Source: Tetragenococcus halophilus subsp. halophilus DSM 20339 (GTDB lineage: Bacteria > Bacillota > Bacilli > Lactobacillales > Enterococcaceae). Taken from it: DNA of 64,000 nt. A program made the position numbers and the translations under genes. Below are positions 2,701 to 61,133 of this stretch, piece by piece (the stretch's first letter is position 1; each line of letters begins with the position of its first letter). The stretch spans positions 1,103,868 through 1,167,867 of the forward strand of contig NZ_PXYA01000001.1 of assembly GCF_003841405.1 (NCBI RefSeq), written 5' to 3'. The notes under the pieces were generated by a model that was not told the origin of the DNA, searched no databases, and was given only the letters and a program-made list of their open reading frames with translations.

Positions 2701-3567
2701 AAGTTTAGTTGACATATTTTTTAAATAACTTTTTAGCTCTTCTTTTGTATCTGGATGTTGCAAACCGTATTCGATATTTGCCTCTAACAATCCAATTTTA
2801 GTTCCTACATCATAACGTTTTCCCTTAAATTCTTGCGCAAATACACGTTGTGTTTTATTTAATTCATCAATAGCATCTGTTAATTGAATCTCACCACCCT
2901 GATCAGGTTCCTGCTTTTCTAACAAATCAAAAATTTCTGGTGTTAGAAGGTAACGTCCAATAATAGCCAAATTAGAGGGGGCTTTATCGGGGGCTGGTTT
3001 TTCAACAAATGAATTCACGTCATATAAACCTTTGTCTACTTCGCCATTAGGTTCAATCACACCATATTTTGAGGTGTCTTTATGTGGAACAGACATCACC
3101 GCTAATGTCGAAGCCTTTGTTTTTTCGTAATCATTGATCAACTGCTTGGTCAAAGGAACTTTATTGCTGGTAATATCATCACCTAGCATTACCACAAAAG
3201 GTTCGTCGCCTACAAATGCTTTAGCCTGTAAAACAGCATGACCTAAACCTAACGGACGTTTTTGACGTACAAAATGTAGGTTGATATCTGTTGTTTCTTC
3301 TACTAACTTCAGTAATTCGGTTTTGCCTGTTCGTTTTAAGTTTTGCTCGAGTTCTATATTTGCATCAAAATGATCTTCAATTGGACGTTTGGCTTTACCT
3401 GTGACAACCAAAATATCTTCAATCCCTGAAGCCATCGCTTCTTCTACAATAAATTGAATCGTAGGTTTATCTACGATTGGCAACATTTCTTTAGCAACTG
3501 CCTTGGTAGCCGGCAAAAAACGCGTGCCTAAACCAGCCGCTGGAATAACTGCTTTTCTAACTTTCAT
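2698..3567 (-). CDS. galU: UTP--glucose-1-phosphate uridylyltransferase
   Basis: 289 aa, the normal GalU length. It makes UDP-glucose from UTP and glucose-1-phosphate in the cytoplasm, for glycolipid, teichoic acid and polysaccharide synthesis and the Leloir pathway. The nucleotidyltransferase signature [20 protein letters not shown] is at residues 12-31, with the Asp-rich MLGDD segment near 128 and the VEKP sugar-phosphate motif near 188. It is monocistronic: it ends at a bidirectional terminator and two small-RNA-like repeats lie upstream. Start ATG at 3567 has only a weak GTGGAAA-type site. Identification is secure. Confidence 0.97.
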
Positions 3568-3645
3568 TTTCCACGCTCATCCTTTTCTTTTGAATTGTAT
3601 TTATTATAACATAACGTTAGTTAAAAATACGTGAAGAAAATCAGC

Positions 3646-3721
3646 AAAAAAAGACCCGCCAGCGGGTAACTGACGGGAAAGGAGTTAAAAATGAAAAAGT
3701 GTTTATAGGGTTGTTTCGTTG
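3646..3721 (-). ncRNA. putative anti-RBS small RNA, family copy 1
   Basis: Minus-strand -35 TTGTTC (3756-3751), 17 bp, -10 TAATAA (3733-3728); predicted start near 3721. The transcript carries the family core GUACCAACGAAACAACCCU, then a segment antisense to AAAGGAG plus AUG (3679-3693), then a stem of 3677-3670 with 3662-3655 closed by one U-G wobble, and ends in seven U (3652-3646). Boundaries are predicted. The plus strand shows AAAGGAG-ATG but its reading frame stops after five codons. Confidence 0.6.
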
Positions 3722-3835
3722 GTACAATTATTAATATAAACAAATTTTTTGAACAAATTATGATCATTTTATTTTAATTCAATAAAAATTAAAACTTTAT
3801 TTGGTTTACAGATTTGCTTCAATATCAATTACTAT

Positions 3836-3911
3836 AAAAAAACGAACCCACCAGGGGGTAACTGGTGGGAAAGGAGTTAAAATGAAAAAGTGTTTATAGG
3901 GTTGCTTCGTT
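3836..3911 (-). ncRNA. putative anti-RBS small RNA, family copy 2
   Basis: Lies about 190 bp right of copy 1 in the same orientation. -35 TTTTTC (3946-3941), 17 bp, -10 TATAGT (3923-3918). The terminator stem is changed on both sides relative to copy 1: CCCACCAG with CTGGTGGG (3869-3862 and 3854-3847), a compensatory pair of changes, followed by GTTCG and a T-run. The anti-SD/anti-AUG core is kept. The remaining 3568-4018 region holds no gene I can see. Confidence 0.6.
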
Positions 3912-4018
3912 GGTACAACTATAATGTAACTAATTTTTATGAAAAATATGTGACGAAACTATTTTGATTAAATTAAATTATTAATAACAGTAGCAGAAAA
4001 TATTAGTTTTTAACATAA

Positions 4019-4525
4019 TCAACGCCAATAAGAAAATAGTATTCCTTGTTTGCCATAAATTGGATCGTTATCAGGTATCAAAACTTCATTAATATTATTC
4101 AATTTTTCTGGACGTTCTTCTTTTTTCCCATAGCAAATATCATAATCCTGTCCATTGGGATAAGCCCCAATAACCGAAAAATCAGCTTGTTTTTCCAGCA
4201 ATTTATGGCCTGTACCTGCCGGTAAAATGAATACATCTCCTTGTTGGGCCTCTAACTGTTCGCCATTTTCACCACCCATTTGTAACAATGCACTCCCACT
4301 ATCAACTACGAGAACTTCATGTGAGTTGCTATGATAATGGTGATAAGGAAATACGCCATTGCGCCAAGCATTTGACCAATGATTTTGATAAAGTATTTGC
4401 ATTGCTTCTTCCTCTGCTTCCATGACATTTTTATAAATAAGTAGAGGAAACTGAGAATTGTTAGGAATTGATCCATCATCCATAAAATAAAGCGCTTGAA
4501 CCTTTACCTCATCTTGTCTTTTCAT
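4019..4525 (-). CDS. YjlB-like cupin protein
   Basis: 168 aa. A single cupin barrel is visible: the metal-binding block HHYHSNSHEVLVV (residues about 62-74) and the second block GDVFILPAGTGHKLL (about 96-110). Length and layout match the YjlB family of small cupins of unknown substrate. The conserved His/Glu set suggests a bound metal. It stands alone, with an AGGAGG-like site before the ATG at 4525 and two small-RNA repeats downstream. Enzymatic function not assignable. Confidence 0.75.
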   Translation of the reverse strand: MKRQDEVKVQALYFMDDGSIPNNSQFPLLIYKNVMEAEEEAMQILYQNHWSNAWRNGVFPYHHYHSNSHEVLVVDSGSALLQMGGENGEQLEAQQGDVFILPAGTGHKLLEKQADFSVIGAYPNGQDYDICYGKKEERPEKLNNINEVLIPDNDPIYGKQGILFSYWR

Positions 4526-7796: not shown

Positions 7797-9670
7797 ATCG
7801 AGTAGGAGACTAACCATTAATTGATTAGTCGACCTCTCACACCACCGTACGTACGGTTCCGTATACGGCGGTTCAATAATTTAAGCTTTTATTTCTCAAG
7901 GATTTCAATGAAATCCTTGAGTTTCCATTGTTTGAACTTTTCTTTGCTGAAGATTCTATTTAGAAGTTTTGATTTTGAAATTCGCCAATACTGTTTCCGG
8001 CTATTCGCATACGTCATGGCCTCTTTATGAGAGGCCCCTCTTGCCTTCAGTTGGCGGTATTTCGTATCGACTTTCTTCCATCTTTTCCAAATCAAGGCTC
8101 GCAACCTATGTCGTAAGTATTCCATCTGTTTAGCTAGGAAAGTTTTTAGTTCTCCGTCTTTATAGTATTGAATCCAACCTTGGGTGTACTGATTGATGGT
8201 TTTGATCATCTCATCTAGCGTGCCCACCCTTTTTCGGTTCGTCAATCTTTTCAGCGTTCTTTTGAACTTTTGTTTGGCCGACGCTGTGGGTCGGCTCTTT
8301 ACTTTCCCTTATCTTTTCTCATACGATAGCTCAGGTATTCTAATTGATGCGCCTTAATGATTTGGCTCTTTTCTTGATTCACCGTCAATCGTAATTTCTT
8401 TTCCAGGAATTGGGTAATACTTTCTTGGACTCTCTGAGCGGCCCGCTCGCTTTGGACAAAGATAATAAAATCGTCCGCGTATCGAATAAACCGATGGTTT
8501 CTTCTTTCGAGTTCCTTATCCAATTGGTCCAGATAAACATTGGCTAAAAGAGGAGAAAGCGGGCTCCCTTGGGAGGCTCCTTTTGAAGTTGGACGAAGAA
8601 TTTCGCCCTCCATTACTCCTGCGTTTAAGAAATTCCAAATAAGTTGGAGAACGGCCTTTTCTTCGATGTACCATCGCATACGATGCATAAGTTTCTGATG
8701 GTTAATCGTGTCGAAATAGCTCTTTAAATCACAGTCGACAACCACGTCATAGCCTTCTTCATAATATTGGCCTGCCTTCGCTATTGCTTGTTGACAGCTT
8801 TTTCCAGGTCTAAACCCATAGCTGTTTTCCGAAAAGGTCGGGTCGATCAAGGGCGTGATGACTTGTAAAATCATTTGTTGTACTACGCGGTCCCGTACGA
8901 CGGGGATGCTCAATTTTCGTTTCTTGCCGTTTCCTTTAGGAATTTCCACACGTTTTGTTGGTTGTGGGCGATAGGTCCCTTCTCTCAGCTTTTGTACAAA
9001 GGGACGACGATACTTGTTCAAATGAGATTTGATTTCAGATACCGTCATATCATCGATTCCCGGTGCTCCTTTGTTCTTTTTGACTTTCTCGATCGCTCGA
9101 TCTATATTCATTGAGCTGACGAGTTCGTTCATTAATGGAAAGCCACTTTGGTTCATCATCTTATTGTCGTGCTCCCTTACGCGCTCCTCATTTCTTCTTT
9201 TGCTTCCAGCTTATCCTTCCACGAGTGAGCTACCTACCGGTCTTTACCACGGTATTGGCTGCGGTCCTGGTGAGCACGTCCACCTCCTTGTTTACTTCAA
9301 AGTTATTATTGTTCAGTCCTTCATATCCATAGGATACTACTATGACCTTGGCTGACTTCTGCCTATTCGTTGTTACTACGATTTCTATCGCTAGGCAGAC
9401 CTCCTCGGGTAAGGTGCGATAACTTTCCACTCACGTCACCGCCTCATTTACTGTATGGGATTCGGGCAGTATTGGACTTTGCTTTGTTTTGCAAGCTCGT
9501 CCGTCCCAATTCAGCCTTCTTATGAGATTCCTGTTCGTCAGTGCGAGTGTTTGCCTCCAGCTTCCTTCAGATTCCGCCTCACGACGGACACCCTTGCTTT
9601 TAGCTAACAGTTCCTACTGCCAAGCCTGTAGTGGACTTTCACCACCAAGTTATCGCCCATGCCGAGCGCA
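7797..9670 (-). mobile_element. group II intron 1 (class C-like), tandem downstream copy
   Basis: The 5' end reads TGCGCTCGGCATGGGCGATA from 9670, one G short of the GTGCG start of intron 2. The catalytic domain V hairpin is at 7841-7874 (GAACCGCC...GTACGGTGGT on the minus strand), and domain VI ends in CCTACTCGAT at 7797. It encodes a reverse transcriptase without an HNH endonuclease, typical of class C. It abuts the 3' end of intron 2 with no exon between them. The missing first G probably impairs splicing. Confidence 0.85.
7889..9159 (-). pseudogene. group II intron reverse transcriptase/maturase, frameshifted (intron 1)
   Basis: The N-terminal part (8299-9159) carries RT blocks: KKNKGAPGIDDM, SYGFRPGKSCQQA, VDCDLKSYFDTI, GSPLSPLLANVYLD and the catalytic YADD (FIRYADDFIIF). 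It stops just after KDKGK. One base added near 8300-8310 joins it to the maturase/thumb part (7889-8299): ASAKQKFKRTLKRL, then GWIQYYKDG and a basic C-terminus. No En domain follows. About 420 aa if repaired. The YADD is intact, so loss of the X domain is the lesion, unless the indel is an error. Confidence 0.85.
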
Positions 9671-11539
9671 ATCGAGTAGGTGACTAGCCATTAATTGGCT
9701 AGTCGACCTCTCACACCACCGTACGTACGGTTCCGTATACGGCGGTTCAATATCTTGCGTAAGCAGACTCTACCAAGGCGCTTAGTGAAACTAAGCCCAT
9801 CGGTGGAGTCTTTCGTTTGTAAGTGTCCGATGAACTTCAGACGTTTTGGACAGTCGCCAATATTTCTTTCTAGAGGATCCGATTTTCTTGGCGCCGTTTA
9901 AATCTAAACCATAAGACAATAACTTCGTTATTTTCGTTTTGGGAACTTTCCAACGTTTGAGGATCAGCTGCCTGATGCGGTGATGTAACCATGGTTCAAT
10001 TTCCTTTTGAATAAAACCTCGAATAAATCCCAATCCGAAATAGCCTATCCAGCCACGCGTGACTTGATTGATTTCCTCTATGATCGTTCGAAAATCACCC
10101 GCACGCTTACGGCTTGTTCGACGTTTCAATTCGGCTTTGAATTTCTTCTTGGCTTCTTTGGTAGGGATAAAACGACAGGTGCCATTGACTTTCATTATCA
10201 GACAGCTCAAGAATTTTAAACGCGTTGGTGCCCCCACTTGACTCTTGTCTTGATTAACAATGAGTTTAAGATCTTTTTCAATGAAACGGGTCACACTTTT
10301 TAACACTCGTTCGCCCGCACGTTTTGACTTGACATAGATGACGAAGTCATCGGCATAACGAACAAATTGGTGTCCTCTTTTCTCAAGTTCTTTATCCAGT
10401 TCATGTAAGTAAATATTACAGAGAAGAGGCGATAAGACCGCCCTTGAGGTGCACCCGACTTTCTTTCTACGTATTCGCTAGACAGGTTAATCACACCACT
10501 CGTCAAGAACTTACGAATAACCTTGAGAATTGCCTTATCTTGAATAAACTGCTCTAAGTGATACATGAGCTTGTCATGATTTAGTGTGTCAAAGCATTGT
10601 TTCAAGTCACAATCGACCACCACTTTATAGCCTTCCTCATAATAGGCGACACATTGCTTCAAAGCAGTGTGTGTTCCCTTATTCGGGCGAAATCCGTGGC
10701 TTTGTGGAAGAAAGTATGGGTCAATGATGGGCTCAATGACTTGTCGAATCGCTTGTTGAACTACGCGATCACGCGCACATGGGATTCCCAATTGGCGTTT
10801 TTCACCATTGGGTTTCGGTATTTCGACTTGTTTGACCGGTTGTGGCTGGTAGGTCCCTTGAAGCAATTTCTGCCTTAGTGGCGCATACAACTTCTCAATG
10901 TGGTCTTCTACTTCATCCACAGCCATACCATCGACACCAGCGGCTCCTTTATTACGTCGGACCCTTGTTGCGGCTGTCTTAAGATTTTCTTTTCTTACAA
11001 CGGACTTCATCAAAGATGAAGACTTACGATACATTTCTTTCATTTCTCCTAGAGGATAACTCGACACATCTACATACGCTTTCAGGTTCCACCTTATCCC
11101 TCTGTAGATTGCCAACCTTATGGTTGTTTTCTGTCTTCTTTGCTTCCTCTAACCTCCAATCTATACTTTGTATGAATATTGTTCGGTCCTTCGGTACATT
11201 TTCCCTACTATGACCTCAGCTGACTTCTATCTATTCGTTATTACTACGACAGCTGTCGCTAGATAGATATCCTCGGGTAAGGAGTGATAACCTTCCACTC
11301 ATGCCGCTGCCTCATTTACTGTATGGGGTTCGGGCAGTATTGGACTTTGCTTTGTTTGGCAAGCTCATCCGTCCCAATCCAGCCTTCCTATGAGGTTTCT
11401 GTTCGTCAGCGCGAGTGTTTGCCTCCAGCTTCCTTCAGATTCCACTTCGCAGTGGACACCCTTGCTTTTGGCTAACAGTTCCTACTGCCAAGCCTGTAGT
11501 GGACTTTCACCACCAAGTTATCGCCCATGCCGAGCGCAC
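9671..11539 (-). mobile_element. group II intron 2 (class C-like), inserted behind a terminator hairpin
   Basis: Starts GTGCGCTCGG at 11539 directly after a stem-loop plus seven T (11571-11541), the target preferred by class C introns. Domain V lies at 9715-9748 and the 3' end CCTACTCGAT at 9671. The first part of domain I and domains V-VI match intron 1 closely, whereas the encoded RTs are clearly diverged, so these are two related introns rather than a recent duplication. Confidence 0.88.
9791..11043 (-). pseudogene. group II intron reverse transcriptase/maturase, frameshifted (intron 2)
   Basis: RT blocks: RRNKGAAGVDGM, SHGFRPNKGTHTAL, VDCDLKQCFDTLNH and SGAPQG, after which the frame is lost near 10440. 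One inserted base restores LSPLLCNIYLHELDKEL and then VRYADDFVIYVKSKRAGERV, continuing into the thumb (GWIGYFGLGFIRGFIQ) and a basic C-terminus at 9791. The start is ambiguous; ATG 11043 lies just behind AGGAG. No endonuclease domain. Same lesion type (single missing base) as intron 1. Confidence 0.85.
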
Positions 11540-11540: not shown

Positions 11541-11615
11541 AAAAAAATCCCGTCAGTAGACTACTGACGGGAAAGGAGTTAAAAATGAAAAAGTGTTTAT
11601 TAGGGTTGTTTCGTT
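11541..11615 (-). ncRNA. putative anti-RBS small RNA, family copy 3 (intron target)
   Basis: -35 TTATTC (11650-11645), 17 bp, -10 TATAAA (11627-11622). Longest perfect stem of the family: CCCGTCAGTAG with CTACTGACGGG (11571-11561 and 11559-11549), followed by seven T. Group II intron 2 begins two bases later, so the intron recognised this hairpin. Here the plus strand could also encode a 21-residue peptide (MKKCLLGLFRWY...), the only uninterrupted long version. Confidence 0.62.
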
Positions 11616-11705
11616 GGTACATTTATAATGTAACGAAGAAATATGAATAAATTGTGATAATTATTTTCTAAAACCTTTAAATTTATGCTATTTCTCTTTC
11701 GATTT

Positions 11706-22574: not shown

Positions 22575-23824
22575 TCATTCTTCTGAAACTGTTTCACTTT
22601 CTAGTTTAATTAAATTTTTTTCGTATACTTTTAAAAATGGGTAGTAGATTAAGCCATCAATAACAATCAACAAAATAACAAGGACTACTGCTCGCCAATC
22701 CATTGTCGATAAAAATGCCCCAATAGGCGCAGGCATTTGCCAAGAAAAAACTGCAAAAGTTTTGCCGACTATTCCTCCTGCCATACACAAGTAAGTAACA
22801 ATTCCATTAAATACAGAAGTAAAAATAAATGGGAAGAAGAAAATTGGGTTTAACATTAAAGGTGTTCCAAAAATCATTGGCTCAGAAAGCCCGAATATTG
22901 AAGGAATAAAACCAACCTTTCCCACTGTGCTTAGTTGTTTTGATCTTGAAAAGATCATTAGTAATGACAAAGCTAAAACCGATCCTGATCCACCAATAAT
23001 CACAAAATAAGTCCAAAATGGTGTTGTGAAAATCCTTGATAGATCACTCCCTGCCACTTTTTCCGCTGCGTTAATCGACAAATTCCCATCACGAATAGGA
23101 CCTAATATTCCAGCTAAAGCAGCATCATGAATACCAAAAAACCAGAATAAATGAATCAAGAAAATACTTAAAATTGTAAATGGCAGACTATCTGCTGCTT
23201 GCAAACTAGGGGACATCGCTTCATATATAAATTGGACAGCAGTTGTATTAAAATTATGGAAAATAACGAATAAAATCGCAAAAAAGGTCATTAATATTAC
23301 ACCTGGAACTAATGCTGCAAACGTTTCTGATAACGAGGCAGGAACACTATCTGGCATAGTGATACGACCTATATTTTTTTTACGCATCCAATGATAGCCT
23401 TCCACAGTAACAATAGCTACAAAAAGGGCCATTAGTATTCCTCGTCCGTCTAAAAAGCTAATTTCTACTTCGTTTCCTTCCCACCCCATCTTCATGGGTG
23501 TTAATACTAGCATTAAAAAACCCGCAATGGCAAACATCATCGGTCTTAAAACATCTTCTTTGTAATGACGACACAAAAAGTAGACAACACCCATACATAT
23601 AAACAATGACATTGCGTTAAGAGTTAGTCCGCTAATCCAGTTTAAAGCTAAACTGTTTTTTTCTGCAAAATCTGCCCAAGCAAGTAAAAAAATATTGGTT
23701 GTATCCTCTGTTACAGGAGCTGCATTTAAAATAATGGGAATTGAACCAAATAGAGTAATAGGTAACATTGACATAAAAGCATCCCTTATGGCTTTTAAAT
23801 GTCTTTGTTGACTTAGCTTATTAG
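22575..23824 (-). pseudogene. celB: PTS lactose/cellobiose IIC (celB), 3' part
   Basis: Carries all but the first 20 codons: LANKLSQQRHLKAIRDAFM runs straight from the IS4 border into MLPITLFGSIPIILNA and the helices of a cellobiose-type IIC, including HLFWFFGIHDAALAGILGPI and GLSEPMIFGTPLMLNPIFF. Removing the IS and one copy of the 7-bp duplication (TTATTAG, 23818-23824) joins it in frame with 25392-25450 to give 433 aa. An internal ATG at 23774 could only give a product lacking the first helix. Confidence 0.9.
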
Positions 23825-25391
23825 CTAAAACTTGAAACCTACTTTTCGATACGTATCCCTTGGTATACCAAGGATCTCATGCACAAAATTAACTTCAACC
23901 TGCTTGCTTGAGCTGTTTTTGTATAGAGGAAGGTAGTTTTTCAAGGAACTGTTCGATAATGTTATTTAATACGGCTTCATCCAAAACATATTCATCCGCA
24001 AAAGCTTCTTGGAATAAAACGAGTAATTGCAGAATGGCTTCCGATACAGAAAGCTCAGAAAGCTCATCAATGAGAAGATAAAATAACTCGCCAAGCGTTC
24101 GGTCGTCTTTACTTTCACGTTCTTGCACCGCTAGGATCATATAACCGATAGCTACCAGTGTCGTATGCGCAAAGATCCCGTCATAAGAAATCCCTTGGTA
24201 CTTGGCTAATTTTAAGTATTGTTTGCACATCTTGAAGTAGACTTCCACCGACCAGCGTCTAGCATAGAGCTGAATGATCTCGTCTTCGGTCAGATCGATA
24301 TCGGTCGAAGCTAAGACCAAATAGTCGTTTCGTTTATTGCGATTGCGAATATATACCAACTTAATGGGAAGGATTTTCCCTTCTACGACAGCTTCTACTT
24401 GGACACTCAAAAGATAGCGAGAACGACCGCGGCGCTTTTTATTTCGTTTGAAGATTTCTTTGACATCCATCTTTTGGCCTTGATAACGGTAGTAGATCTT
24501 TTGACTACGTTTGACCATCGCTACGCAGTGGCATTTCAGGTCACGGATCTGTTGGAACATTTTGGGACTGGAAAACCAAGTATCGAATAAGACATAATCC
24601 GCATGGATCCCTTGGTTCAAAGCCGATCGAAGCAGTTCCAGTGTCACTTCTGTGCCTTTACGAAGCGCTTGAGCTTTACGTTTCCCCCTATTCGTGCGTT
24701 GGTCCCCGATATCAAGATCAGATTGGAGCTTTCTTTTCCCGGAGAGCAAGGAAAAAGCGACGGGGACAAAGCTGTTGCCATCACTCCAGCCTAATTGTAA
24801 ATAACGAAATCCTTTGAAATATTTTTTCTTGGCATGGTCGTATTGTAAAGCGGCACATTCCACTTTTTTCGCATTCGAGCGGGTATACATGGAGTCATCC
24901 ACGATAAATGTGGTTTTTCGGGCATCATCCGTCAATGGACGTAGGAAAGTAATGACGGATTTAGCCACTAAGATCAGTGATTTTTGCCAATGAATGTGCG
25001 GATCATTCAAAACGTTGCGAAATGTTTTATCTGAAAATGATAGCTGTTCCTTTTGCTTTTGGTAAAACCGATAGGTAGAACCGTTGGTAAAGATCGAGGC
25101 CAATAAAAAAGAAAAAATAACAGGAACCGAAAAACCCCTTTTATGGACTGCGTTTGATTTTTTCAACGCAGAAGCTACATGGAACCGATGAAAAAAATCA
25201 GACACAGAGGTAGAAATTTTTTCTGAATTTGACGTTTTTTGTGTTATAATTGACATGGCATGAACACTCCTTGGTTATTGGTTTTTTGGTAATTCTATTA
25301 TACCAAGTTTTGAGTCGTTCATGCTATTTTTGTATCAAAAAACGTTTATTTATCAAGGGATGAACTGTATTTTTGAACTTTCAAGTTTTAG
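23825..25391 (-). mobile_element. IS4-family insertion sequence, copy 1 (in celB)
   Basis: 1,567 bp with inverted ends CTAAAACTTGAAA; flanked by TTATTAG at 23818-23824 and 25392-25398. Clean insertion. Confidence 0.92.
23895..25256 (-). CDS. IS4-family transposase
   Basis: 453 aa. Catalytic blocks: FIVDDSMYTRSNAKKVE, YVLFDTWFSSPKMF, and YARRWSVEVYFKMCKQYLKL, which is the exact Y-2-R-3-E-6-K signature of the IS4 group. Differs from copy 2 at a few residues only. Intact. Promoter TATAAT (25302-25297, preceded by TGG) lies between the arms of a hairpin GCATGAAC.ACTC/GAGTGTTCATGC that can mask AAGGAG in readthrough RNA. Confidence 0.95.
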   Translation of the reverse strand: MSIITQKTSNSEKISTSVSDFFHRFHVASALKKSNAVHKRGFSVPVIFSFLLASIFTNGSTYRFYQKQKEQLSFSDKTFRNVLNDPHIHWQKSLILVAKSVITFLRPLTDDARKTTFIVDDSMYTRSNAKKVECAALQYDHAKKKYFKGFRYLQLGWSDGNSFVPVAFSLLSGKRKLQSDLDIGDQRTNRGKRKAQALRKGTEVTLELLRSALNQGIHADYVLFDTWFSSPKMFQQIRDLKCHCVAMVKRSQKIYYRYQGQKMDVKEIFKRNKKRRGRSRYLLSVQVEAVVEGKILPIKLVYIRNRNKRNDYLVLASTDIDLTEDEIIQLYARRWSVEVYFKMCKQYLKLAKYQGISYDGIFAHTTLVAIGYMILAVQERESKDDRTLGELFYLLIDELSELSVSEAILQLLVLFQEAFADEYVLDEAVLNNIIEQFLEKLPSSIQKQLKQAG

Positions 25392-25450
25392 TTATTAGCT
25401 ATTGGAGATATATATTGATCCATTTTTGCACTAATACTATCAAAATTCAT
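25392..25450 (-). pseudogene. celB: PTS IIC (celB), 5' part
   Basis: ATG at 25450, 6 bp after the IIB stop, encodes MNFDSISAKMDQYISPIAN before the IS4 end. With 22575-23817 it restores one 1,302-bp frame. Confidence 0.88.
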
Positions 25451-37783: not shown

Positions 37784-38608
37784 TTAAAAATATACACCTA
37801 CAATTGTTCCCGTTAAAATAGAAACTAAGGTAGCACCTAGTAAAAGCTTCATAGAAAATTTGGCTACAAATCCTCCTTGTTTTTCACTGATAGACTTAAT
37901 GGAACCAGTAATAATACCTACCACACTAAAATTGGCAAACGAAATTAAATAAGAAGAAATAATTGCATTGCCTTTTGGGCTTAATGCTTCAGCTACTTGG
38001 TTGAGTTCACCTAAAGCAACAAATTCATTGGTTAAAATTTTTGTTGCCATTAAACTACCAATTTGTGTGATGTCTTCTGAAGGAACGCCCATCAAAAAAG
38101 CGATCGGTGAAAATATGTAACCTAAGACAGTCGTAAATTCGACATTAAAAATCGCTACAAAAGTACTATTTAAAAAGGTAACTAGAGCGACAAAACCAAT
38201 GAGCATCGCTGCAACTGTGGTTGCTAATTTAAACCCATCTTGGATATAATTGCCAAGGACTTGAAAAAACGGTTCTTTACTAACATTTAGCGACTCATTC
38301 GTGTTCATGGAAAGCTCTTCTTCAGGGGCCACATCATAAGGATTGATGATACAAGAGACGATCAGTGCAGATAAAATATTTAAAAATACTGCTGTCACCA
38401 CAAATTTAGCTGGTACTAATTGCATATAAGAAGCTAAAACAGTCGCCGACACCGCACTCATTGCAGAAGCACAAATCGTATAGAGACGCTTCTCATCTAA
38501 TTTTGGAATTTTGTCTTTAATGGTGAGAAATACTTCAGGTTGCCCTAATATAGCAGTAGATACTGCAAAGTAACTTTCGAGCTCTCCCATCCCGGCTATC
38601 TTATTTAA
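37784..38608 (-). pseudogene. nupC: nucleoside permease nupC, 3' part
   Basis: CNT-family nucleoside:proton symporter, C-terminal two thirds. From the IS4 border it reads NKIAGMGELESYFAVSTAIL, then GQPEVFLTIK (Na+/H+-nucleoside family motif), AISSYLISFANFSVVGIITG and the last helices. With one copy of the 8-bp duplication removed (38601-38608) it joins 40176-40555 in frame: 398 aa. It would have fed the deo pathway. Confidence 0.92.
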
Positions 38609-38675
38609 CTAAAACTTGAAAGTTCAAAAATACAGTTCATCCCTTGATAAATAAACGTTTTTTTATACAAAAATA

Positions 38676-38742
38676 GCATGAACCACTCAAATCCTGGTAT
38701 AATAGAATCAACGAAAAACCACTAACCAAGGAGTGTTCATGC
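38676..38742 (+). promoter_or_regulatory. IS4 transposase promoter inside a start-masking hairpin
   Basis: GCATGAACcACTC (from 38676) pairs with GAGTGTTCATGC (to 38742), covering AAGGAG and the base before ATG 38744. TGGTATAAT (TATAAT 38698-38703) lies between the arms, so RNA from the IS promoter lacks the left arm while readthrough RNA has both. Confidence 0.6.
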
Positions 38743-38743
38743 C

Positions 38744-40105
38744 ATGTCAATTATAACACAAACAACGCCAAACTCAGAAAAAATTTCTACCTCTGTGTCT
38801 GATTTTTTTCATCAGTTCCATGTAGCTTCTGCTCTTAAAAAATCGAATGCCGTGCACAGGAAGGGTTTCTCCGTTTCTGTTATTTTTTCGTTCCTATTAG
38901 CTTCGATCTTTACCAACGGTTCTACCTATCGGTTTTACCAAAAGCAAAAGGAACAGCTATCATTTTCAGATAAAACATTTCGCAACGTTTTGAATGATCC
39001 GCACATTCATTGGCAAAAATTACTGATCTTAGTGGCTAAATCCGTCATTACTTTCCTACGTCCATTGACGGATGATGCCCGAAAAACCACATTTATCGTG
39101 GATGACTCCATGTATACCCGCTCGAATGCGAAAAAAGTGGAATGTGCCGCTTTACAATACGACCATGCCAAGAAAAAATATTTCAAAGGATTTCGTTATT
39201 TACAATTAGGCTGGAGTGATGGCAACAGCTTTGTCCCCGTCGCTTTTTCCTTGCTCTCCGGGAAAAGAAAGCTCCAATCTGATCTTGATATCGGGGACCA
39301 ACGCACGAATAGGGGGAAACGTAAAGCTCAAGCGCTTCGTAAAGGCACAGAAGTGACACTGGAACTGCTTCGATCGGCTTTGAACCAAGGGATCCATGCG
39401 GATTATGTCTTATTCGATACTTGGTTTTCCAGTCCCAAAATGTTCCAACAGATCCGTGACCTGAAATGCCACTGCGTAGCGATGGTCAAACGTAGTCAAA
39501 AGATCTACTACCGTTATCAAGGCCAAAAGATGGATGTCAAAGAAATCTTCAAACGAAATAAAAAGCGCCGCGGTCGTTCTCGCTATCTTTTGAGTGTCCA
39601 AGTAGAAGCTGTCGTAGAAGGGAAAATCCTTCCCATTAAGTTGGTATATATTCGCAATCGCAATAAACGAAACGACTATTTGGTCTTAGCTTCGACCGAT
39701 ATCGATCTGACCGAAGACGAGATCATTCAGCTCTATGCTAGACGCTGGTCGGTGGAAGTCTACTTCAAGATGTGCAAACAATACTTAAAATTAGCCAAGT
39801 ACCAAGGGATTTCTTATGACGGGATCTTTGCGCATACGACACTGGTAGCTATCGGTTATATGATCCTAGCGGTGCAAGAACGTGAAAGTAAAGACGACCG
39901 AACGCTTGGCGAGTTATTTTATCTTCTCATTGATGAGCTTTCTGAGCTTTCTGTATCGGAAGCCATTCTGCAATTACTCGTTTTATTCCAAGAAGCTTTT
40001 GCGGATGAATATGTTTTGGATGAAGCCGTATTAAATAACATTATCGAACAGTTCCTTGAAAAACTACCTTCCTCTATACAAAAACAGCTCAAGCAAGCAG
40101 GTTGA
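38744..40105 (+). CDS. IS4-family transposase
   Basis: 453 aa; same catalytic blocks as the copy at 23.9 kb (DDSMYTRSNAKK, FDTWFSSPKMF, YARRWSVEVYFKMCK). Differences cluster in the first 90 residues. Intact frame; the clean duplication around the element implies a fairly recent insertion. Confidence 0.95.
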   Translation: MSIITQTTPNSEKISTSVSDFFHQFHVASALKKSNAVHRKGFSVSVIFSFLLASIFTNGSTYRFYQKQKEQLSFSDKTFRNVLNDPHIHWQKLLILVAKSVITFLRPLTDDARKTTFIVDDSMYTRSNAKKVECAALQYDHAKKKYFKGFRYLQLGWSDGNSFVPVAFSLLSGKRKLQSDLDIGDQRTNRGKRKAQALRKGTEVTLELLRSALNQGIHADYVLFDTWFSSPKMFQQIRDLKCHCVAMVKRSQKIYYRYQGQKMDVKEIFKRNKKRRGRSRYLLSVQVEAVVEGKILPIKLVYIRNRNKRNDYLVLASTDIDLTEDEIIQLYARRWSVEVYFKMCKQYLKLAKYQGISYDGIFAHTTLVAIGYMILAVQERESKDDRTLGELFYLLIDELSELSVSEAILQLLVLFQEAFADEYVLDEAVLNNIIEQFLEKLPSSIQKQLKQAG

Positions 40106-40175
40106 AGTTAATTTTGTGCATAAGATGCTTAGTATACCAAGGGATACGTATCGAAAAATAGGTTTCAAGTTTTAG

Positions 40176-40555
40176 TTATTTAATAAATACCCTGTCCATT
40201 TGATGATAAAGGGCAAAATTTTAAGATAATTTAAAATCCCCACTAATGCCGAAATAAAAACGATGGGCATTAAAACGTCCAGGAAGAAGACAGATGCTCC
40301 TTTTTGAACCATCAATCCGCCGAAAACAAAGTCAACACCACCTGCGGCTTGTTCCATTAGCCAACCGAAAAAGACAGAAATGCTTTCCATTACATGGACG
40401 CCACCTGACGTATTCAAACAGAGGAAAGAAATAATGAGTTGCAAGACAAACATCATGCCCATCTTTTTAAACTTAATCTGTTTCCGATTACTACTTGCTA
40501 GCCAGCCCACCACAAAAACAAAAGCTAAACCGGTCAATAAAAACACGAATTGCAT
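40176..40555 (-). pseudogene. nupC: nucleoside permease nupC, 5' part
   Basis: Start ATG at 40555 (MQFVFLLTGLAF) chosen for the GGAAGAGG upstream; an earlier ATG at 40579 has no such site. Encodes the first three helices, including LNTSGGVHVMESISVFFGWL and PIVFISALVGILNYLKILPF, then runs into the IS4 end after GYLLN. Confidence 0.9.
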
Positions 40556-40889
40556 TCCTAAGCGCCTCTTCCATTCCATAAAATTTAAAAGGGATCTAAC
40601 AGTTACAAATGTATAACTTTGTTATTAACACCATTAACATCCCTTTTTTGTTCATCGTATAAATCCTACCAGTGTTTTTTGCAATTATAAACCTGAATGA
40701 TTTATAAAAATTTGTGGATAACGCATTCGACTGTTCAACGAGGTGACTTTTATGTTATTTTCCCTTTTTATCGCCGCTTTTGAATAAAGAATAGAAAGGG
40801 ATGATCGAACGACGCTAAAAAAAGATAAAATTCTTCCTAGAGAATGAAAGCCAAGCCTTTTTTATCAAGAGGAAAAGGGGAAAAGTAAA

Positions 40890-42212
40890 CTAGAGATTCA
40901 ATCGCTGAATTCGTGTAAGGACTTCCCAAAAAAGCGTGTTGTAAACATTCGTACTTGATAAGTGAATTTGCACTTGACGCGCGTGTTCTGTGACTTTTCC
41001 AGCAATATGAAATAGTTGAAAACGGATCGTGTCAATCACCGTCGTCTTTTTCTCTTGCGGAAAAGTCAGCTGTTTCATCAAGTGGATGATATTATAGGCG
41101 ATAAAACTTAGGGCTAAGCGAACCTTATTCGCTAAAAAGGAAGGACTGTCCGTTTTATCAGCGAAAAATCCGGTCTTCATTTCTTTAATGAAGTTTTCCA
41201 TATTCCCTCGTTTTTGATAGAGCTGAAAAATGGTTTGGGGCGAAAGATGAGCGAAATCGGTCACCACAAATTGAAATTCGGAAAAAAGTAAAGTTTCGGC
41301 TTTTCGAGTAGCCTTGATGGCTACTGTTCGAGATCGGTCCCAAGAATCTGCTTGATAAGCCATCTTAAAATATTGATGTTCGGACTTTGTGTAGTCCGTA
41401 CCGTTGGTATATTGGACAAGATGTTGCGCATAATGAATCAACCGTACGTTATTTTTCAATTTAATCACATAATGGGCGCCTCGACACTCACATTGTTTAT
41501 AAATTTCCGGTTTGGCAAAGCCACTATCCCCGCGTACAAGCATTGTGGGATCACTCGAACGTTGTTGGTAATGCGCCAACATTTCTACGAGATAATCTTC
41601 GGCGTGGGTGGAGGTATAAGATTTGCCATGACGATGGCGAACATCTAATGCCAATCCGGTTAAACCTTCAAATGCCACAAATGAATGATACCCATTGAGG
41701 CCATAGTGGTAAATATATTCCCCTGCTTCTTGCTTTCCGTAAGTGGGACAACAGGTGGAATCCAGATCAAGCACGAGTTGTTGGCTGTTTTGCTGGTCCA
41801 TGCCTAAATCGCCAAGTTTTTTCGCCACTTGTAATAGTTGATTAACATTTTCTTCTGTCAAGGTATGAAGCAAAGTAGACATCATAAATTGCGAACTAAG
41901 GCGTTCTTGTTTCAATGCTTCCTTAAAAAGGCGATCATATTGTAAGGTGTTGGCGTCTCGGTCTCGAGAATAACCAGCGATCAATTGATATAGCCATTGT
42001 TTTACGACATCCAGCCATTCATGTTGGGCGAAGGCACGATACTCTGGAATATGAACGTATTGCGCTAACAGGGAATCAAAACGAATTTGATTTAGAAACT
42101 CCGAAAGTAAGACGAGCCCCGCGTCATTGGTTAAGGTGCCACCGTCATTGGCGATCAAGATGGCTTTTTGCTTATTGAATGTAAGAGAATTTTGTTGTAA
42201 AGTGAAAGACAT
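40890..42212 (-). CDS. IS1380-family transposase
   Basis: 440 aa from ATG 42212 (AAGGAG upstream). DDE blocks VLDLDSTCCPTYGKQ, VRGDSGFAKPEIYKQ, YQKRGNMENFIKEMKTGF. Intact, unlike the second copy at 53 kb, which has a one-base deletion. Confidence 0.93.
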   Translation of the reverse strand: MSFTLQQNSLTFNKQKAILIANDGGTLTNDAGLVLLSEFLNQIRFDSLLAQYVHIPEYRAFAQHEWLDVVKQWLYQLIAGYSRDRDANTLQYDRLFKEALKQERLSSQFMMSTLLHTLTEENVNQLLQVAKKLGDLGMDQQNSQQLVLDLDSTCCPTYGKQEAGEYIYHYGLNGYHSFVAFEGLTGLALDVRHRHGKSYTSTHAEDYLVEMLAHYQQRSSDPTMLVRGDSGFAKPEIYKQCECRGAHYVIKLKNNVRLIHYAQHLVQYTNGTDYTKSEHQYFKMAYQADSWDRSRTVAIKATRKAETLLFSEFQFVVTDFAHLSPQTIFQLYQKRGNMENFIKEMKTGFFADKTDSPSFLANKVRLALSFIAYNIIHLMKQLTFPQEKKTTVIDTIRFQLFHIAGKVTEHARQVQIHLSSTNVYNTLFWEVLTRIQRLNL

Positions 42213-42272
42213 AAGAACGCACTCCTTATTGTTATGTTTCGTTGACTTTACAATAACACGAAGTGCGTTCTT
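42213..42272 (-). promoter_or_regulatory. Shine-Dalgarno-masking hairpin of IS1380 transposase
   Basis: AAGAACGCACT (42272-42262) pairs with AGTGCGTTCTT (42223-42213) next to the ATG; inner TTATTGT/ACAATAA. AAGGAG is enclosed. Confidence 0.6.
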
Positions 42273-42366
42273 TTTGTACACCCAGAAGGTGAAGCAACTC
42301 AACCTTTAGAAAAAAGCACATGCCAAGGATTGAATGATCCTGGGAAAAATTTATAAATCATTCAGG

Positions 42367-42703
42367 ATAAAGTGTTTTTCGTAAAATTTTCTTTCCTATA
42401 ACAAGGAAGTTTTCCAGAAGGAAACAACGCAGTAAATGTTTATACAAACGCTTTATCAACGTTATCACACGAATTTAATCAGTACGTATTTTATCAAATG
42501 AGCGAAAAAAGCTAAATTTTTAGCCATAAAAAAACGCCTACCAAAGCCTTGATAGACATTTTTTCCATTCTAAAGTTTTTCCAGTTTCAAGATTTTAATA
42601 TAATCTTGTTTTGTGGATAAGATACGATAAACATTAACCTCCTCAGACAGGTACGATATTATTCATGCTTTTTACCCTTTCTTATACTACTTTTTCTCAA
42701 TTG
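42367..42703. other. intergenic region between IS1380 and metal ATPase gene
   Basis: No supported gene. A minus-strand frame of about 25 codons (VNVYRILSTKQDYIKILKLE) near 42570-42640 reads like coding remnant but has no start. GCTAAATTTTTAGC (about 42510) is a small palindrome. Confidence 0.35.
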
Positions 42704-44536
42704 TTAACTTATTCTGGGCTTCATATGCATTCTTGTATGGCTTTTTTCCCTTCTTGCCCGCAGAGCGCTCAAAATCGACACCGTGTCCACCACTTCTTGT
42801 AGAGCTGCCCCTAACAATGCCGGTATAAGACCAGTACTTGCAACCAACATCAAAGCTACACAAATAAATATTCCAATCAAAACAGATTGCTGGGCTACTT
42901 TCATGGTATCTTTTGACAAACGAATGGCTTCTGATACTCGTGTTAAGTCATCTTTTAAAATAACCGCATCCGCACTTTCACTGGCCGCAGTCGACCCATG
43001 CGCGCCCATGGCAATGCCAATATCTGCCGTAGCCAAAGCCGGCGCATCATTGACACCATCGCCTACCATAATAAGTGGACGTTGCTTTTCTTCTAGATCT
43101 TTTAGGACTTGAATTTTTTCTTCAGGCAAACATTGAGCATGAACATCAGAAATATTTACTTTTTCCGCAATTTGATAAGCAATTTCTGCATCATCACCTG
43201 TCAACATTACGGTTTTTTCGACCCCTAGCTGATTTAATTGATTGATGGTTTCTCTGACTTCTAAACGAAGTACGTCTTTAAAAGTAATATAACCAACATA
43301 CTGTTCATCTACTGTAAGATAAACAACCGTTTTGTTCGTTTGCCCTACAAAACCATTTCCAGCAAATGAAGCATTGCCAACGCGAACTTTTTTTCCAGCA
43401 ACAAAAGCTTCTACGCCCTTTCCAGTCACCTCTTGTAGGTTTTTCACAGCTCGCAGTTGAAGGCTCTCTTCTTTTGCTTGCGCAACTAACGATCGTGCTA
43501 AAATATGAGTCGATTCTTGTTCGACGCTTGCTGCTAAAGTTAGTAACTCTTTTGCAGAAAGTTGCTTATTCTCAGATTGAATTTCATCGACAGAAAGCTT
43601 TCCTTTAGTTAAAGTTCCCGTTTTATCAAAGGCAATGGTATTTGCTTTAGCTAATTTTTCAATCGTTGTTCCTGTTTTAACGACAATACCGTTTCTACTC
43701 GAACGGCTCATACCTGCCACTAAAGCAACCGGCGCAGCTAGTATTAATGGACAAGGCGAAGCTACAACCAAAACTTCCGCAAAACGTACGGGATCTTTAG
43801 AAATAAACCAAGCAAAGCCTCCGATAATATAGGCAATTAAAGTAAAAGGAACTGCGTACCGATCCGCCAACCGTACAAAATGAGCAGGTTTGGCTTTCGA
43901 TTCCTCCACTAATTTGACTAATTTTTGGTATTGGCTATCACTTGCTTTTTTGATTACTCGTATACGGATTGAAGCATCCTTCACAATGGAGCCCGACATT
44001 ATTTCATCACCAGCCGATTTTTCAATGGGTCGGGATTCTCCTGTTAAAGACGATTCATCCACCAGCGTTGTTCCTGTCTCTACTGTCCCGTCTACCGGAG
44101 CAATTTCGCCTGGCTTAATCAAAAGAAGGTCATTGACACTGGCTTCCTCTACTTCAATGTCATGTAACTGTTCATTCACGATTTTATGGGCAACTTGCGG
44201 TGAATTTTCTAAAAGGGTGCGCAATTCACGACCCGCTTGATGACTGGCATAGTCTTCTAAACTGTCTCCGCCTGTAAGCATTACCAATACTACTAAGCTT
44301 GCCCAATACTCACCAACCAACAAGGTGGCGACAATAGCCGTAATCGCTAAGATATCTACCCCGTATTTCCCAGATTTTAAGGTCTGAATCATGCCAATAA
44401 ACATAGAAATTGCCATGACGCCTCCTGCAATAGCGATAATCCAAAAGGCAACTTGCGGTTGATTAAACATAAATTCCATAATTAAAGCAATAATGCCAAT
44501 AAAAATCGTTAGGACAAATTTTTTAAAATTACTCAC
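42704..44536 (-). CDS. P1B-type metal-transporting ATPase, PfeT/FrvA-like
   Basis: 610 aa from GTG 44536, chosen because GGAGG lies 8 bp before it; no N-terminal heavy-metal-binding domain. Actuator SLTGES, metal-site helix VVASPCPLILAAP, phosphorylation DKTGTLTKG, hinge MVGDGVNDAPAL. The SPC motif instead of CPC marks the group that includes B. subtilis PfeT and Listeria FrvA (Fe2+ efflux) and Co/Zn exporters. A 15/19 match to the Fur box lies about 72 bp upstream of the start, favouring iron. Specificity remains inference. Confidence 0.85.
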   Translation of the reverse strand: MSNFKKFVLTIFIGIIALIMEFMFNQPQVAFWIIAIAGGVMAISMFIGMIQTLKSGKYGVDILAITAIVATLLVGEYWASLVVLVMLTGGDSLEDYASHQAGRELRTLLENSPQVAHKIVNEQLHDIEVEEASVNDLLLIKPGEIAPVDGTVETGTTLVDESSLTGESRPIEKSAGDEIMSGSIVKDASIRIRVIKKASDSQYQKLVKLVEESKAKPAHFVRLADRYAVPFTLIAYIIGGFAWFISKDPVRFAEVLVVASPCPLILAAPVALVAGMSRSSRNGIVVKTGTTIEKLAKANTIAFDKTGTLTKGKLSVDEIQSENKQLSAKELLTLAASVEQESTHILARSLVAQAKEESLQLRAVKNLQEVTGKGVEAFVAGKKVRVGNASFAGNGFVGQTNKTVVYLTVDEQYVGYITFKDVLRLEVRETINQLNQLGVEKTVMLTGDDAEIAYQIAEKVNISDVHAQCLPEEKIQVLKDLEEKQRPLIMVGDGVNDAPALATADIGIAMGAHGSTAASESADAVILKDDLTRVSEAIRLSKDTMKVAQQSVLIGIFICVALMLVASTGLIPALLGAALQEVVDTVSILSALRARREKSHTRMHMKPRIS

Positions 44537-44607
44537 TTCATCACCCTCCAACTTTCCATCCCAGCTTAGCACTTATTTTTTCCAATTGATACTAGAAAAC
44601 CGTAATT

Positions 44608-44626
44608 GAGAACGATAATCATTGGC
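44608..44626. promoter_or_regulatory. Fur/PerR-like box upstream of metal ATPase
   Basis: GAGAACGATAATCATTGGC matches GATAATGATAATCATTATC at 15 of 19 positions, including the central GATAATCATT. Confidence 0.6.
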
Positions 44627-44754
44627 AATAGCTTATATGTTTTTTTCTATTAGAATAGTTCTAAAAAATAATTAATAAAATCCCCTTATCTAAAAAGTTA
44701 TTTTCTTAGATAAGAGGATAAGAGAATCTATTTTTCATCCCAAGTTATTTTTTA

Positions 44755-46197: not shown

Positions 46198-47089
46198 CGA
46201 CTTCCTCCTTGAATACATTGGTAAAGTAATCTTCAAAATTCGTTTTGATTTCTTTAAAGAATAAAACATCGTAATATTGAAGGTCATTCATCAAGTCATT
46301 GATATCTTTATCATTGATGTTGACATTTAACTGCAGATCCTCTTCTTTGACATTTGACAACTCATAACCCAACGCTTGGAATTGTTGGAAGCTTTCCTTC
46401 GTTTTAAATTCTAATTTATAGGTTTTGTTTTTATTATGAAGGAGATCCTTCATGACGAGTTGATCAATAATACGACCATCTTTGATCATGGCCACGCGAT
46501 CACAAGTTTGTTCGATTTCTTCAAAAATATGGCTCGACAAGAATATCGTATGCCCCATTTCTTTTTCTTCTTTGATCAAATCAATAAAGACATCACGCAT
46601 TAAAGGGTCTAACCCTGTGGAAGGTTCATCTAAAATCAATACATCAGAGTCTAAAGAGAACGCCGCAGCCAAGGCTGTTTTTTGTTTCATACCTTTACTC
46701 ATCGTTTTAAGTCCTGCGGTATAATCCAACTGCAGTCTTTCACAGATTTGTTTACAGCGTTGCCAACTACCGCGACCGGCTTTTTCCATCTGCCGTTTTA
46801 AGAAGGTTTCACCTGTTTTGTCTGCTGGAAAATTGATTTCTCCAGGAACATAGCTGACAAAACGTTTGATTTGAGCACTACTTTTTTGCGTATCCATACC
46901 ATTAATAAAAGCTTGTCCACTATCAGGCTTGATAAAACCCATCAATTGGCGAATAGTAGTCGTCTTCCCGGCACCGTTAATACCTACCAGCCCAAAGGTT
47001 TCTCCTTGTTCAATTGAAAGAGAAATATCAAATACGCCGCTGTCTTGTCCATAATCCTTGGTTAAATTTTCTAAATCAATGTATCCCAT
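46187..47089 (-). CDS. ABC transporter ATP-binding protein 2
   Basis: 300 aa. Walker A GINGAGKTTTIRQ (near 37), signature-position segment TMSKGMKQKTALAAA, Walker B LILDEPSTGLDP, H-loop FLSSHIFEEIE. C-terminal extension of about 80 residues resembles drug/bacitracin-type exporters. Overlaps its neighbours by 14 and 11 bases: one translationally coupled operon. Paralogue of the next gene upstream; the pair may form a heterodimer. Confidence 0.93.
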   Translation of the reverse strand: MGYIDLENLTKDYGQDSGVFDISLSIEQGETFGLVGINGAGKTTTIRQLMGFIKPDSGQAFINGMDTQKSSAQIKRFVSYVPGEINFPADKTGETFLKRQMEKAGRGSWQRCKQICERLQLDYTAGLKTMSKGMKQKTALAAAFSLDSDVLILDEPSTGLDPLMRDVFIDLIKEEKEMGHTIFLSSHIFEEIEQTCDRVAMIKDGRIIDQLVMKDLLHNKNKTYKLEFKTKESFQQFQALGYELSNVKEEDLQLNVNINDKDINDLMNDLQYYDVLFFKEIKTNFEDYFTNVFKEEVANV

Positions 47090-48014: not shown

Positions 48015-48047
48015 ATCTTTTCGCTCCTCATTTACAAAAGTATGTTA

Positions 48048-48082
48048 AATGACATATGACCGTTTATTTACATATGTTCATT
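48048..48082. promoter_or_regulatory. candidate TetR operator
   Basis: AATGACATATG-12 bp-CATATGTTCATT, an inverted repeat with one extra base in the right arm, between the ABC operon and the regulator. Confidence 0.5.
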
Positions 48083-48198
48083 TATTGATTATAATAGGCT
48101 TGGTAAAAATTACAACAAACAACTTGGCAGAATATGGAACTTAAATGACAGATTTACCAAAATTGTTTATTAAAATTTTAAGAAAGGAACATCTTTGC

Positions 48199-48780: not shown

Positions 48781-48785
48781 AACAT

Positions 48786-48857
48786 AAAAAGACCCGCCAG
48801 CGGGTAACTGACGGGAAAGGAGTTAAAAAATGAAAAAGTGTTTCAGGGTGTTTCGTT
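48786..48857 (-). ncRNA. putative anti-RBS small RNA, family copy 4
   Basis: -35 TTATTC (48892-48887), 17 bp, -10 TAAAAG (48869-48864). Core is three bases shorter than copy 3. Same stem as copy 1 with a U-G pair on this strand. T-run of five. Converges on the TetR gene 3' end. The plus strand could encode MKKCFRVFRWYTFNVTIKSE. Confidence 0.55.
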
Positions 48858-49038
48858 GGTACACTTTTAATGTAACGATAAAAAGTGAATAAATTATGAC
48901 ATTTCTTTTTTTAAATTCTAAAAAAGAAATGAAAAAGAATTTTTGTCAAAGGATCAAAGTGAGCCTCTCCCTATTTCGAAACTAACCGTATTAATTACTA
49001 ACACAAAGACGATTTTGTTATAGCGTTAAAGTTACCTC

Positions 49039-51308: not shown

Positions 51309-51326
51309 CTAAAGCAAACTTGGAAA

Positions 51327-51616: not shown

Positions 51617-51634
51617 AAAGAAAGGAAGAGTAAT

Positions 51635-60880: not shown

Positions 60881-60952
60881 AAAAAGACCCGCCAGCGGGT
60901 AACTGACGGGAAAGGAGTTAAAAAATGAAAAAGTGTTTCAGGGTGTTTCGTT
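60881..60952 (-). ncRNA. putative anti-RBS small RNA, duplicate of copy 4
   Basis: Base-for-base duplicate of 48786-48857 with the same promoter and terminator; adds no independent evidence. Confidence 0.55.
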
Positions 60953-61133
60953 GGTACACTTTTAATGTAACGATAAAAAGTGAATAAATTATGACATTTC
61001 TTTTTTTAAATTCTAAAAAAGAAATGAAAAAGAATTTTTGTCAAAGGATCAAAGTGAGCCTCTCCCTATTTCGAAACTAACCGTATTAATTACTAACACA
61101 AAGACGATTTTGTTATAGCGTTAAAGTTACCTC

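Follow-up and report, generated by a model that had tools for sequence, protein, structure and literature searches.

A multi-copy family of predicted anti-start-codon small RNAs in the Enterococcus family, with a promoter layout shared with htrA

We describe a family of predicted RNAs of about 75-80 nt that are probably transcribed from the minus strand under a response regulator (RR) of the BsrR/PieR type, together with htrA, and that would repress several mRNAs by pairing with their Shine-Dalgarno (SD) sequences and start codons. The DNA itself displays multiple copies, a terminator whose stem covaries, a nearly invariant anti-AUG/anti-SD stretch, a repeat promoter at a fixed offset from the -10 element, a spread throughout the Enterococcus family and the same promoter layout before htrA.

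Small RNA genes in the window and genome

The window, by which we mean the whole 64-kb stretch of DNA that was analysed, holds five minus-strand copies of the small RNA (sRNA) gene, four of them distinct, of 76-80 nt each. Copy 1 runs from its UACC start to the end of its U-run at 3646..3724 (genome search, fold and sequence), and its anti-AUG/anti-SD stretch CAUUUUUAACUCCUUU lies at 3678..3693, again on the minus strand. Copy 2 lies at 3836..3915 (genome search and fold), copy 3 at 11541..11619 (genome search and sequence) and copy 4 at 48786..48861 (genome search and fold), while copy 5 (60881..60956) is a duplicate of copy 4 brought about by a 12.1-kb duplication. These are the places and the strand given in a preliminary description of this DNA, the last two entries of which are one duplicated copy. 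With copy 1 as query, a genome search returned matches of 92% identity over 95 positions (E 3e-29), of 86% (3e-28) and of 87% (3e-25), and because of these E values we do not regard the copies as chance repeats. A sixth match was found by the same search on another contig (C2:4611-4703), and a diverged member lies directly upstream of walR-walK at C1:152412, where WalR was identified by the NCBIfam YycF model (433.9 bits, cutoff 340). Together the genome contains eight matches to our covariance model of the family, R1, and a search of the plasmid collection gave no match.

A direct duplication (40689-51926 and 52787-64000, spacing about 12.1 kb, matched pieces 89-100% identical) carries copy 4 along with a repeat array of 41-bp period near 51.3-51.7 and 63.4-63.7 kb, and a match to Rfam rli28, a Listeria sRNA, adjoins the duplication joint (52402-52586, plus strand; 92.5 bits, cutoff 45). 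An inverted repeat of 1,573 bp (23822-25394 and 38606-40178, 98% complementary, 13.2 kb apart) covers a 453-aa ORF in each arm, and these ORFs are perhaps a transposase pair. Two tandem group II introns occupy 7797-11539 on the minus strand; the U-run of copy 3 is immediately followed by the second, which starts with GTGCG at 11539. The counterpart of this copy in T. halophilus Tet1 (L031) has no intron behind it; the identical intron start follows a copy from another species (L033), and L029 has an intron match immediately behind its copy. The sRNA terminators look like recurrent landing sites for introns.

RNA anatomy and predicted fold

Read 5' to 3', a unit consists of UACCAACGAA, an ACCCU stretch, AAACACUUUUUCAU, three to five extra U, AACUCCUUU, and a stem-loop with a U-run, and would be made here as a short RNA ending at that terminator. 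All window copies start with UACCAACGAA and hold CAUUUU(U)(U)AACUCCUUU, the complement of AAAGGAGUU..AUG, so the complementarity to an SD sequence and AUG that had been proposed is present in each of them; the middle of the unit as a whole is the complement of AAAGGAGUU-AUG-AAAAAG. The start that had been called invariant is so in the window, and the G that precedes UACC varies: the walR-linked copies, like several others, have A there. In the predicted fold the anti-SD/anti-AUG sequence is unpaired, with a weak 5-bp hairpin touching its CAU side in copy 4.

The hairpin and U-run are likewise present at the 3' end as described before, with fold z values of -2.2 to -4.3 among the window copies and with 0, 4, 0 and 3 shuffles per 200 folding as well as the real stem. 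Five of the nine stem pairs show two-sided changes that keep the pair among 26 distinct copies of the genus. A wider set of 137 copies contains 66 distinct 5' stem arms around a central stretch that is nearly invariant; the letters of the collection filter are constant in this set by construction, and the adjoining AACAC, which lies outside the filter, is 93-97% conserved. A diverged third type of the sRNA carries AGUUGCA near its start, followed by UUUUUCAC, and has the same promoter layout; it occurs in three genomes of the genus, at C3:436226 in our own (L169) and at L127 and L170, in each case opposite a gene that we take to be branched-chain amino acid transporter-like.

Distribution of the family

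The R1 model finds the sRNA in 103 of 105 genomes of the Enterococcus family and in 17 of its 17 genera, with 1-17 copies per genome (at least two in 98 of the 103), some of them in closely spaced tandem arrays. The two negative genomes are G017 (100% complete) and G075 (76%). Throughout the order, R1 matches occur in 94 of 395 genomes. The own family accounts for 70 of these (out of 71 in the set) and a single other family (f8, by our guess Vagococcaceae) for the remaining 24; the rest of the 395 genomes gave no match at the stricter filters used for the larger scans, which could have passed over weak relatives. The 52 stretches that contain the exact pattern include some from named Enterococcus species. 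These results answer the earlier proposal of a covariance-model search in the order and in Rfam: the 94 positive genomes belong to two families, and the Rfam matches are below threshold. We conclude that this is a real, family-wide and multi-copy sRNA family, the genes of which are predicted.

The best Rfam match is Ref84 (RF02846; 30.3 bits, cutoff 52), followed by csRNA (RF02379), at 19.5 bits for copy 1 (cutoff 57). Across the copies tested, Ref84 scores range from 22.9 to 36.0 bits, the top value belonging to the diverged, walR-linked copy L016, which also scores 33.3 bits with the csRNA model. Seven further sources with walR-region copies (six distinct) gave no Ref84 or csRNA match at E <=1, and 40 other Enterococcaceae sources, of which 36 hold an R1 copy, gave none at gathering level. 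LhrC, for which we assume that Rfam includes a model, is not among the Rfam matches at E <=10 for window positions 3500-4050.

A conserved promoter with a direct repeat

The conserved promoter combines TCAYA-N6-TCA, a direct repeat of 11-bp period, with a -10 element of the form TA-N3-T that follows after 11 nt. A -35/-10 pair with a spacing of exactly 17 bp had been claimed for these copies; that pair is not conserved, and the repeat with its TAnnnT is conserved in its place. In copy 1 the repeat box ATCATAATTTGTTCAAA, a predicted RR site, lies at 3748..3764 (alignment and sequence) and the -10 element TATATT at 3733..3738, both on the minus strand. The -10 element is TACATT in the remaining minus-strand copies, at 3923..3928 in copy 2, 11627..11632 in copy 3, 48869..48874 in copy 4 and 60964..60969 in copy 5. 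It is accompanied by repeat boxes GTCACATATTTTTCATA at 3938..3954 and ATCACAATTTATTCATA at 11642..11658 (both by promoter-pattern scan and sequence), GTCATAATTTATTCACT at 48884..48900 (alignment and sequence) and, read from the sequence of copy 5, at 60979..60995. From the end of the -10 element to UACC there are 7 nt in four window copies and 8 nt in copy 1, which shares with its relatives one extra base before UACC.

Among 31 aligned copies from the genus, all have TCA[CT]A and 30 have the second TCA, with TCC in the other. In a set of 70 contexts that was gathered before any promoter-pattern search in other genera, the strict repeat is present in 55, each of which also matches the -10 element at its T, A and T; of the 15 without it, 13 depart from it chiefly in the first repeat. 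A looser form of the promoter fits 129 of 135 copies in a set that was gathered later and partly via the pattern itself. The placement of a repeat at a fixed distance from the -10 element is the geometry of a promoter controlled by an OmpR-family RR, and marks the repeat as a predicted binding site.

The promoter pattern alone, with no RNA sequence in the query, matches 37 sites in 10 genomes of eight genera, as opposed to 6 for the reversed pattern. An R1 match was present at the site in 24 of 30 loci fetched by this pattern, and the other six comprise four that precede one permease-like gene, one that precedes htrA (G041, E. mundtii) and one that is unclear. At L115 1501-1531 (G088:C1:374731) a promoter-pattern match is followed by a short, terminator-ended unit with no R1 match, perhaps a further, unrelated small RNA, upstream of a gene that is presumably polA-like.

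The same promoter layout upstream of htrA

The box TCA-N8-TCA-N11-TA-N3-T, with a chance rate of 0.6% per region, precedes htrA in 40 of 44 genomes that have a BsrR/PieR-type RR and in 0 of 11 without an RR match at E 1e-60, a contrast among hand-picked genomes that is uncorrected for relatedness and counts few independent events because the compared genomes are related. The survey covered 60 loci, and the box was also present in all five genomes of the own family outside the RR draw (G012, G055, G076, G102 and G104). The 44 RR-positive genomes comprise 25 in a first set (G228 and 24 members of the own family) and 19 in a second, drawn from f8 or other families. In 15 of these 19 the box was seen, its distance upstream of the aligned start ranging from 5 to 403 nt, and some of these boxes may not be the htrA promoter. 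A partial match (L292) is included in the count. The RR-positive loci scored as boxless are L296, L301, L303 and L312, two of them (L303 and L312) cut by contig ends, and L303 is scored so within the 40 of 44 with a misplaced search region, the box being visible in its locus. The 11 RR-negative genomes were taken from 20 that were listed without an RR match, with 75 more outside that list. Trypsin and PDZ domains of HtrA were found by domain search in the product of a boxed locus.

Eight of the 11 RR-negative genomes carry a CiaR-type box, TTAAG-N6-TTAAG, upstream of htrA, namely G177 and all seven with the label f3, which we take to be streptococci; the same box is found at htrA in one RR-positive genome (L301). 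G017, which has no sRNA match, contains both the RR and a boxed htrA. Expression data have placed htrA of E. faecalis in the CroRS regulon, and passages of a study of Listeria place htrA there under LisRK and PieRS (PMC12826053).

A BsrR/PieR-type candidate regulator

The genome encodes an RR of this type at C3:82627-83346, which would be the regulator of the copies described here, and which shares 77% identity with the box-adjacent RR of G009. Its best NCBIfam family is PieR (312.8 bits, under the cutoff of 450), and the nearest chains of solved structure are MtrA and RegX3. The four boxed permease loci contain ORFs that by eye are permease-like and ATPase-like and that follow a gene presumed to be ltaS-like. 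The permease-like and ATPase-like pairs lie at L177 6868-8138, L178 1104-2362, L179 1004-2270 and L180 1141-2377; a Pfam search of the L180 pair gave no match. The bsrRS pair is the convergent neighbour in three of these four loci; G070 is the exception, with about 10 kb between the locus and the RR on the same contig. The boxed pair is likely to belong to the same regulon.

The promoter of the RR operon in G041 (E. mundtii) contains TAGAGTATACTA, which the passages available from PMC6522849 print as the bsrX site of E. mundtii and others. From the gene order and this printed site before the operon, the RR at C3:82627-83346 is assigned to BsrR of BsrXRS. Some findings speak against this RR as the regulator. 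The in-silico BsrR site published in the same source, TMGAGTATAMTA, is different from the TCAYA repeat (PMC6522849), and the box is absent from bsrXRS promoters in six upstream regions read by eye. The RR is also much commoner than the sRNA, with a match in 300 of the 395 genomes of the order, as against 94 with the sRNA, and in at least 93 of those 94 (G283 is not among the rows listed). Loss of BsrR lowers resistance to bile salts or detergent, and a genomic link to ltaS1 has been noted, according to passages of two studies (PMC6522849, PMC13123819). The more recent of these, from 2026, calls BsrRS understudied and its role less clear in the passages at hand (PMC13123819). The promoter repeat is common to the sRNAs and htrA, and at htrA it is seen where the RR is present and in none of the 11 genomes where it is absent. 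It is likely that the sRNA promoters and htrA are under the predicted control of a BsrR/PieR-type RR.

Pairing with start regions

In a single register, copies 1 and 4 pair with at least 15 of 19 positions across the SD sequence and AUG in 52 and 62, respectively, of 316 start regions, which represent the predicted genes of 464 kb (20 stretches and the window) rather than of the whole genome. Shuffled RNAs gave means of 4.6 and 4.5 and maxima of 23 and 17 for the two copies, so that 0 of 60 reached the real value. Duplex energies, each set against one shuffle, were -13.6 versus -13.7 kcal/mol for copy 1, -13.5 versus -12.7 for copy 3 and -14.3 versus -12.0 for copy 4; they separate poorly because the SD regions are rich in purines and bind a pyrimidine-rich RNA in any case. 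The naming of targets by duplex energy was dropped, there being no useful split from shuffled RNAs. In the target prediction that had been suggested, pairing in register exceeds all 60 shuffles for copies 1 and 4, but duplex energy hardly sets the real RNAs apart, and no named target emerges. The sRNA fits start regions in general, and we claim no particular targets. By analogy with csRNAs and LhrC, it would act in trans on mRNAs and repress them by blocking ribosome binding.

Alternative explanations

The RNA family may be as described and its promoter repeats bound by another OmpR-family regulator, such as WalR, CroR, a LisR/EtaR-like protein or another of the genome's eight, which we consider unlikely but a serious contender. 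The member directly upstream of walR-walK would fit this, as would the R1 matches (E <1e-4) in the walR locus of 6 of 30 genomes, the placement of E. faecalis htrA in the CroRS regulon, the control of the analogous LhrC by LisR in Listeria and the lack of a box at bsrXRS itself. However, among the eight RR loci the box occurs only at walR, by way of the sRNA, and the htrA box tracks the presence of the BsrR-type RR, in a contrast that was run for that RR alone. Individual candidates were also considered. WalR was set aside with only those 6 of 30 walR loci containing a match; in three other genera some 1.7-4.7 kb separate walR from the copy upstream, which adjoins a gene we presume to be DegV-like, and therefore the linkage to walR is loose. 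PhoP, an idea that came from the resemblance of the repeat to a Pho box, was rejected, the box scoring at most 10.7 at pstS (loci L092-L107) and 8.8 at the phoP-like gene (L047), under the lowest training score of 14.1. CroR was also set aside: its motif TTTATTAA, as given in passages of PMC9426447, is not the repeat, though some copies contain TTTATT.

Three further readings take issue with the RNA family itself rather than with its regulator, and all appear very improbable. That the copies are the streptococcal csRNA family under CiaR agrees with their common layout and with the 33.3 bits of L016, which by eye has a 5' hairpin and then ACCCUAAC, close to the nonamer [A/C]UCCUAAA[A/C]; but copy 1 falls far below the csRNA cutoff, the seven further walR-region sources contain no csRNA match at E <=1, and TTAAG-N6-TTAAG occurs in 0 of the 135 distinct copies. 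We make no claim of common descent with csRNAs, the score of L016 being unrepeated in those seven sources. Slightly less credible still is a small mobile or repeated element, of the kind of a terminator-like repeat, with no regulatory role: tandem arrays, up to 17 copies per genome, the clusters in the window and the group II introns just behind some terminators might suggest one, but the central stretch and promoter are conserved while the stem arms take 66 distinct forms in 137 copies. The least probable is a short peptide or leader on the plus strand, where a perfect SD sequence precedes ATG AAA AAG TGT and frames of about 20 codons are open in copies 3 and 4. Against it, the orientation of the terminator, the U-run and the -10 element all belong to the minus strand, indels 3' of the ATG ignore the frame, and 56 of 135 MKKC frames stop after 4-5 codons (lengths 4-53 aa); the conserved plus-strand peptide frame that the preliminary description had named as evidence against an sRNA is absent.

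Implications for envelope stress

Our preferred reading, that of sRNAs expressed with htrA under a BsrR/PieR-type RR, suggests the following course of events. Stress would activate the kinase and lead to phosphorylation of the regulator, which would bind to the TCAYA repeats that shortly precede the -10 element and raise the expression of htrA, for protein quality control, and of all sRNA copies together. The sRNAs in turn could cut the synthesis of some envelope or secreted proteins, and the load would be reduced. We hold it evenly balanced whether this amounts to a so far undescribed circuit for envelope stress throughout the family, with a BsrR/PieR-type regulator that switches on htrA and 1-17 anti-start-codon RNAs, giving a CiaR-like output through another regulator and another DNA code. 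If true, either the regulator of a conserved stress module was swapped or the module evolved twice, with the bank of RNAs kept. The htrA box is of the CiaR type in the presumed streptococci and of the TCAYA type in the Enterococcus family, so that one regulator may have replaced another while the output was conserved. Joining BsrRS to Ref84-like RNAs gives a testable circuit, from envelope stress through the regulator to htrA and an RNA bank and to a lower output of certain proteins. The family concerned counts both food fermenters and hospital opportunists among its members.

Comparison with known systems

Among well-known targets of CiaR is htrA. The csRNAs of the CiaRH regulon, as described in passages of PMC3091779, have an RR direct repeat beside the -10 element, and resemble the family described here in being multi-copy and of similar size, in their unpaired anti-SD/anti-AUG stretch and in a regulon that includes htrA. 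The analogy to csRNAs drawn in the preliminary description is upheld and can be carried over to the regulon, with htrA preceded by a promoter of the kind seen before the sRNAs. The differences lie in the box, which is TTTAAG-N5-TTTAAG for CiaR and TCAYA-N6-TCA here, and in the RR, which is CiaR there and would be of the BsrR/PieR type here. The window copies contain ACCCU(A/G)A or ACCCUA, with U to C at position 2 of the csRNA nonamer, and ACCCUAA resembles the latter. We regard the family as an analogue, and perhaps a relative, of the csRNAs. Listeria monocytogenes provides a further parallel in LhrC1-5, multi-copy sRNAs driven, according to the passages available, by LisR of the envelope-stress system LisRK. 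As is predicted here, the several copies answer to a two-component system for envelope stress, and control of htrA by LisRK and PieRS has likewise been reported; the difference is that the RR is LisR, for which those passages of the LhrC paper report that no consensus is known.

The regulator proposed here is of the same RR type as that of BsrXRS, BsrRS (YclRK) and PieRS, and in the passages, titles and term counts of the literature on these systems we found no sRNA regulon, one S. mutans paper having each of the two terms, BsrR and sRNA, a single time. Among named RNA families the nearest is Ref84, which shares a 5' UACCAAC, a ACUCCUUU stretch and the terminator, with positions 1-87 of the 87 in the model aligned, but above the gathering cutoff of which the family does not score. 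No paper joining Ref84 with Enterococcus was found in a literature search, and for Tetragenococcus and small RNAs the passages returned contained only PMC7724050 as relevant. Passages of that study report E. faecalis sRNA_109 and E. faecium sRNA_093 as resembling Rfam sRNA 84, predicted from transcriptome maps and of unknown function, and give no promoter code, regulator or multi-copy nature for them (PMC7724050). With predictions derived from transcriptome maps, a relative is probably transcribed in E. faecalis and E. faecium. The passages searched contain no function in print for Ref84-like RNAs. The preliminary description had recognised no named family in the copies, which stands in that they score below the Ref84 and csRNA cutoffs, but Ref84 is a below-threshold relative, and Ref84-like RNAs had already been predicted in the two Enterococcus species. 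The prior art is therefore Ref84 and sRNA_109/_093, and what is new is the breadth of the family, its promoter code, the link to htrA and a candidate regulator.
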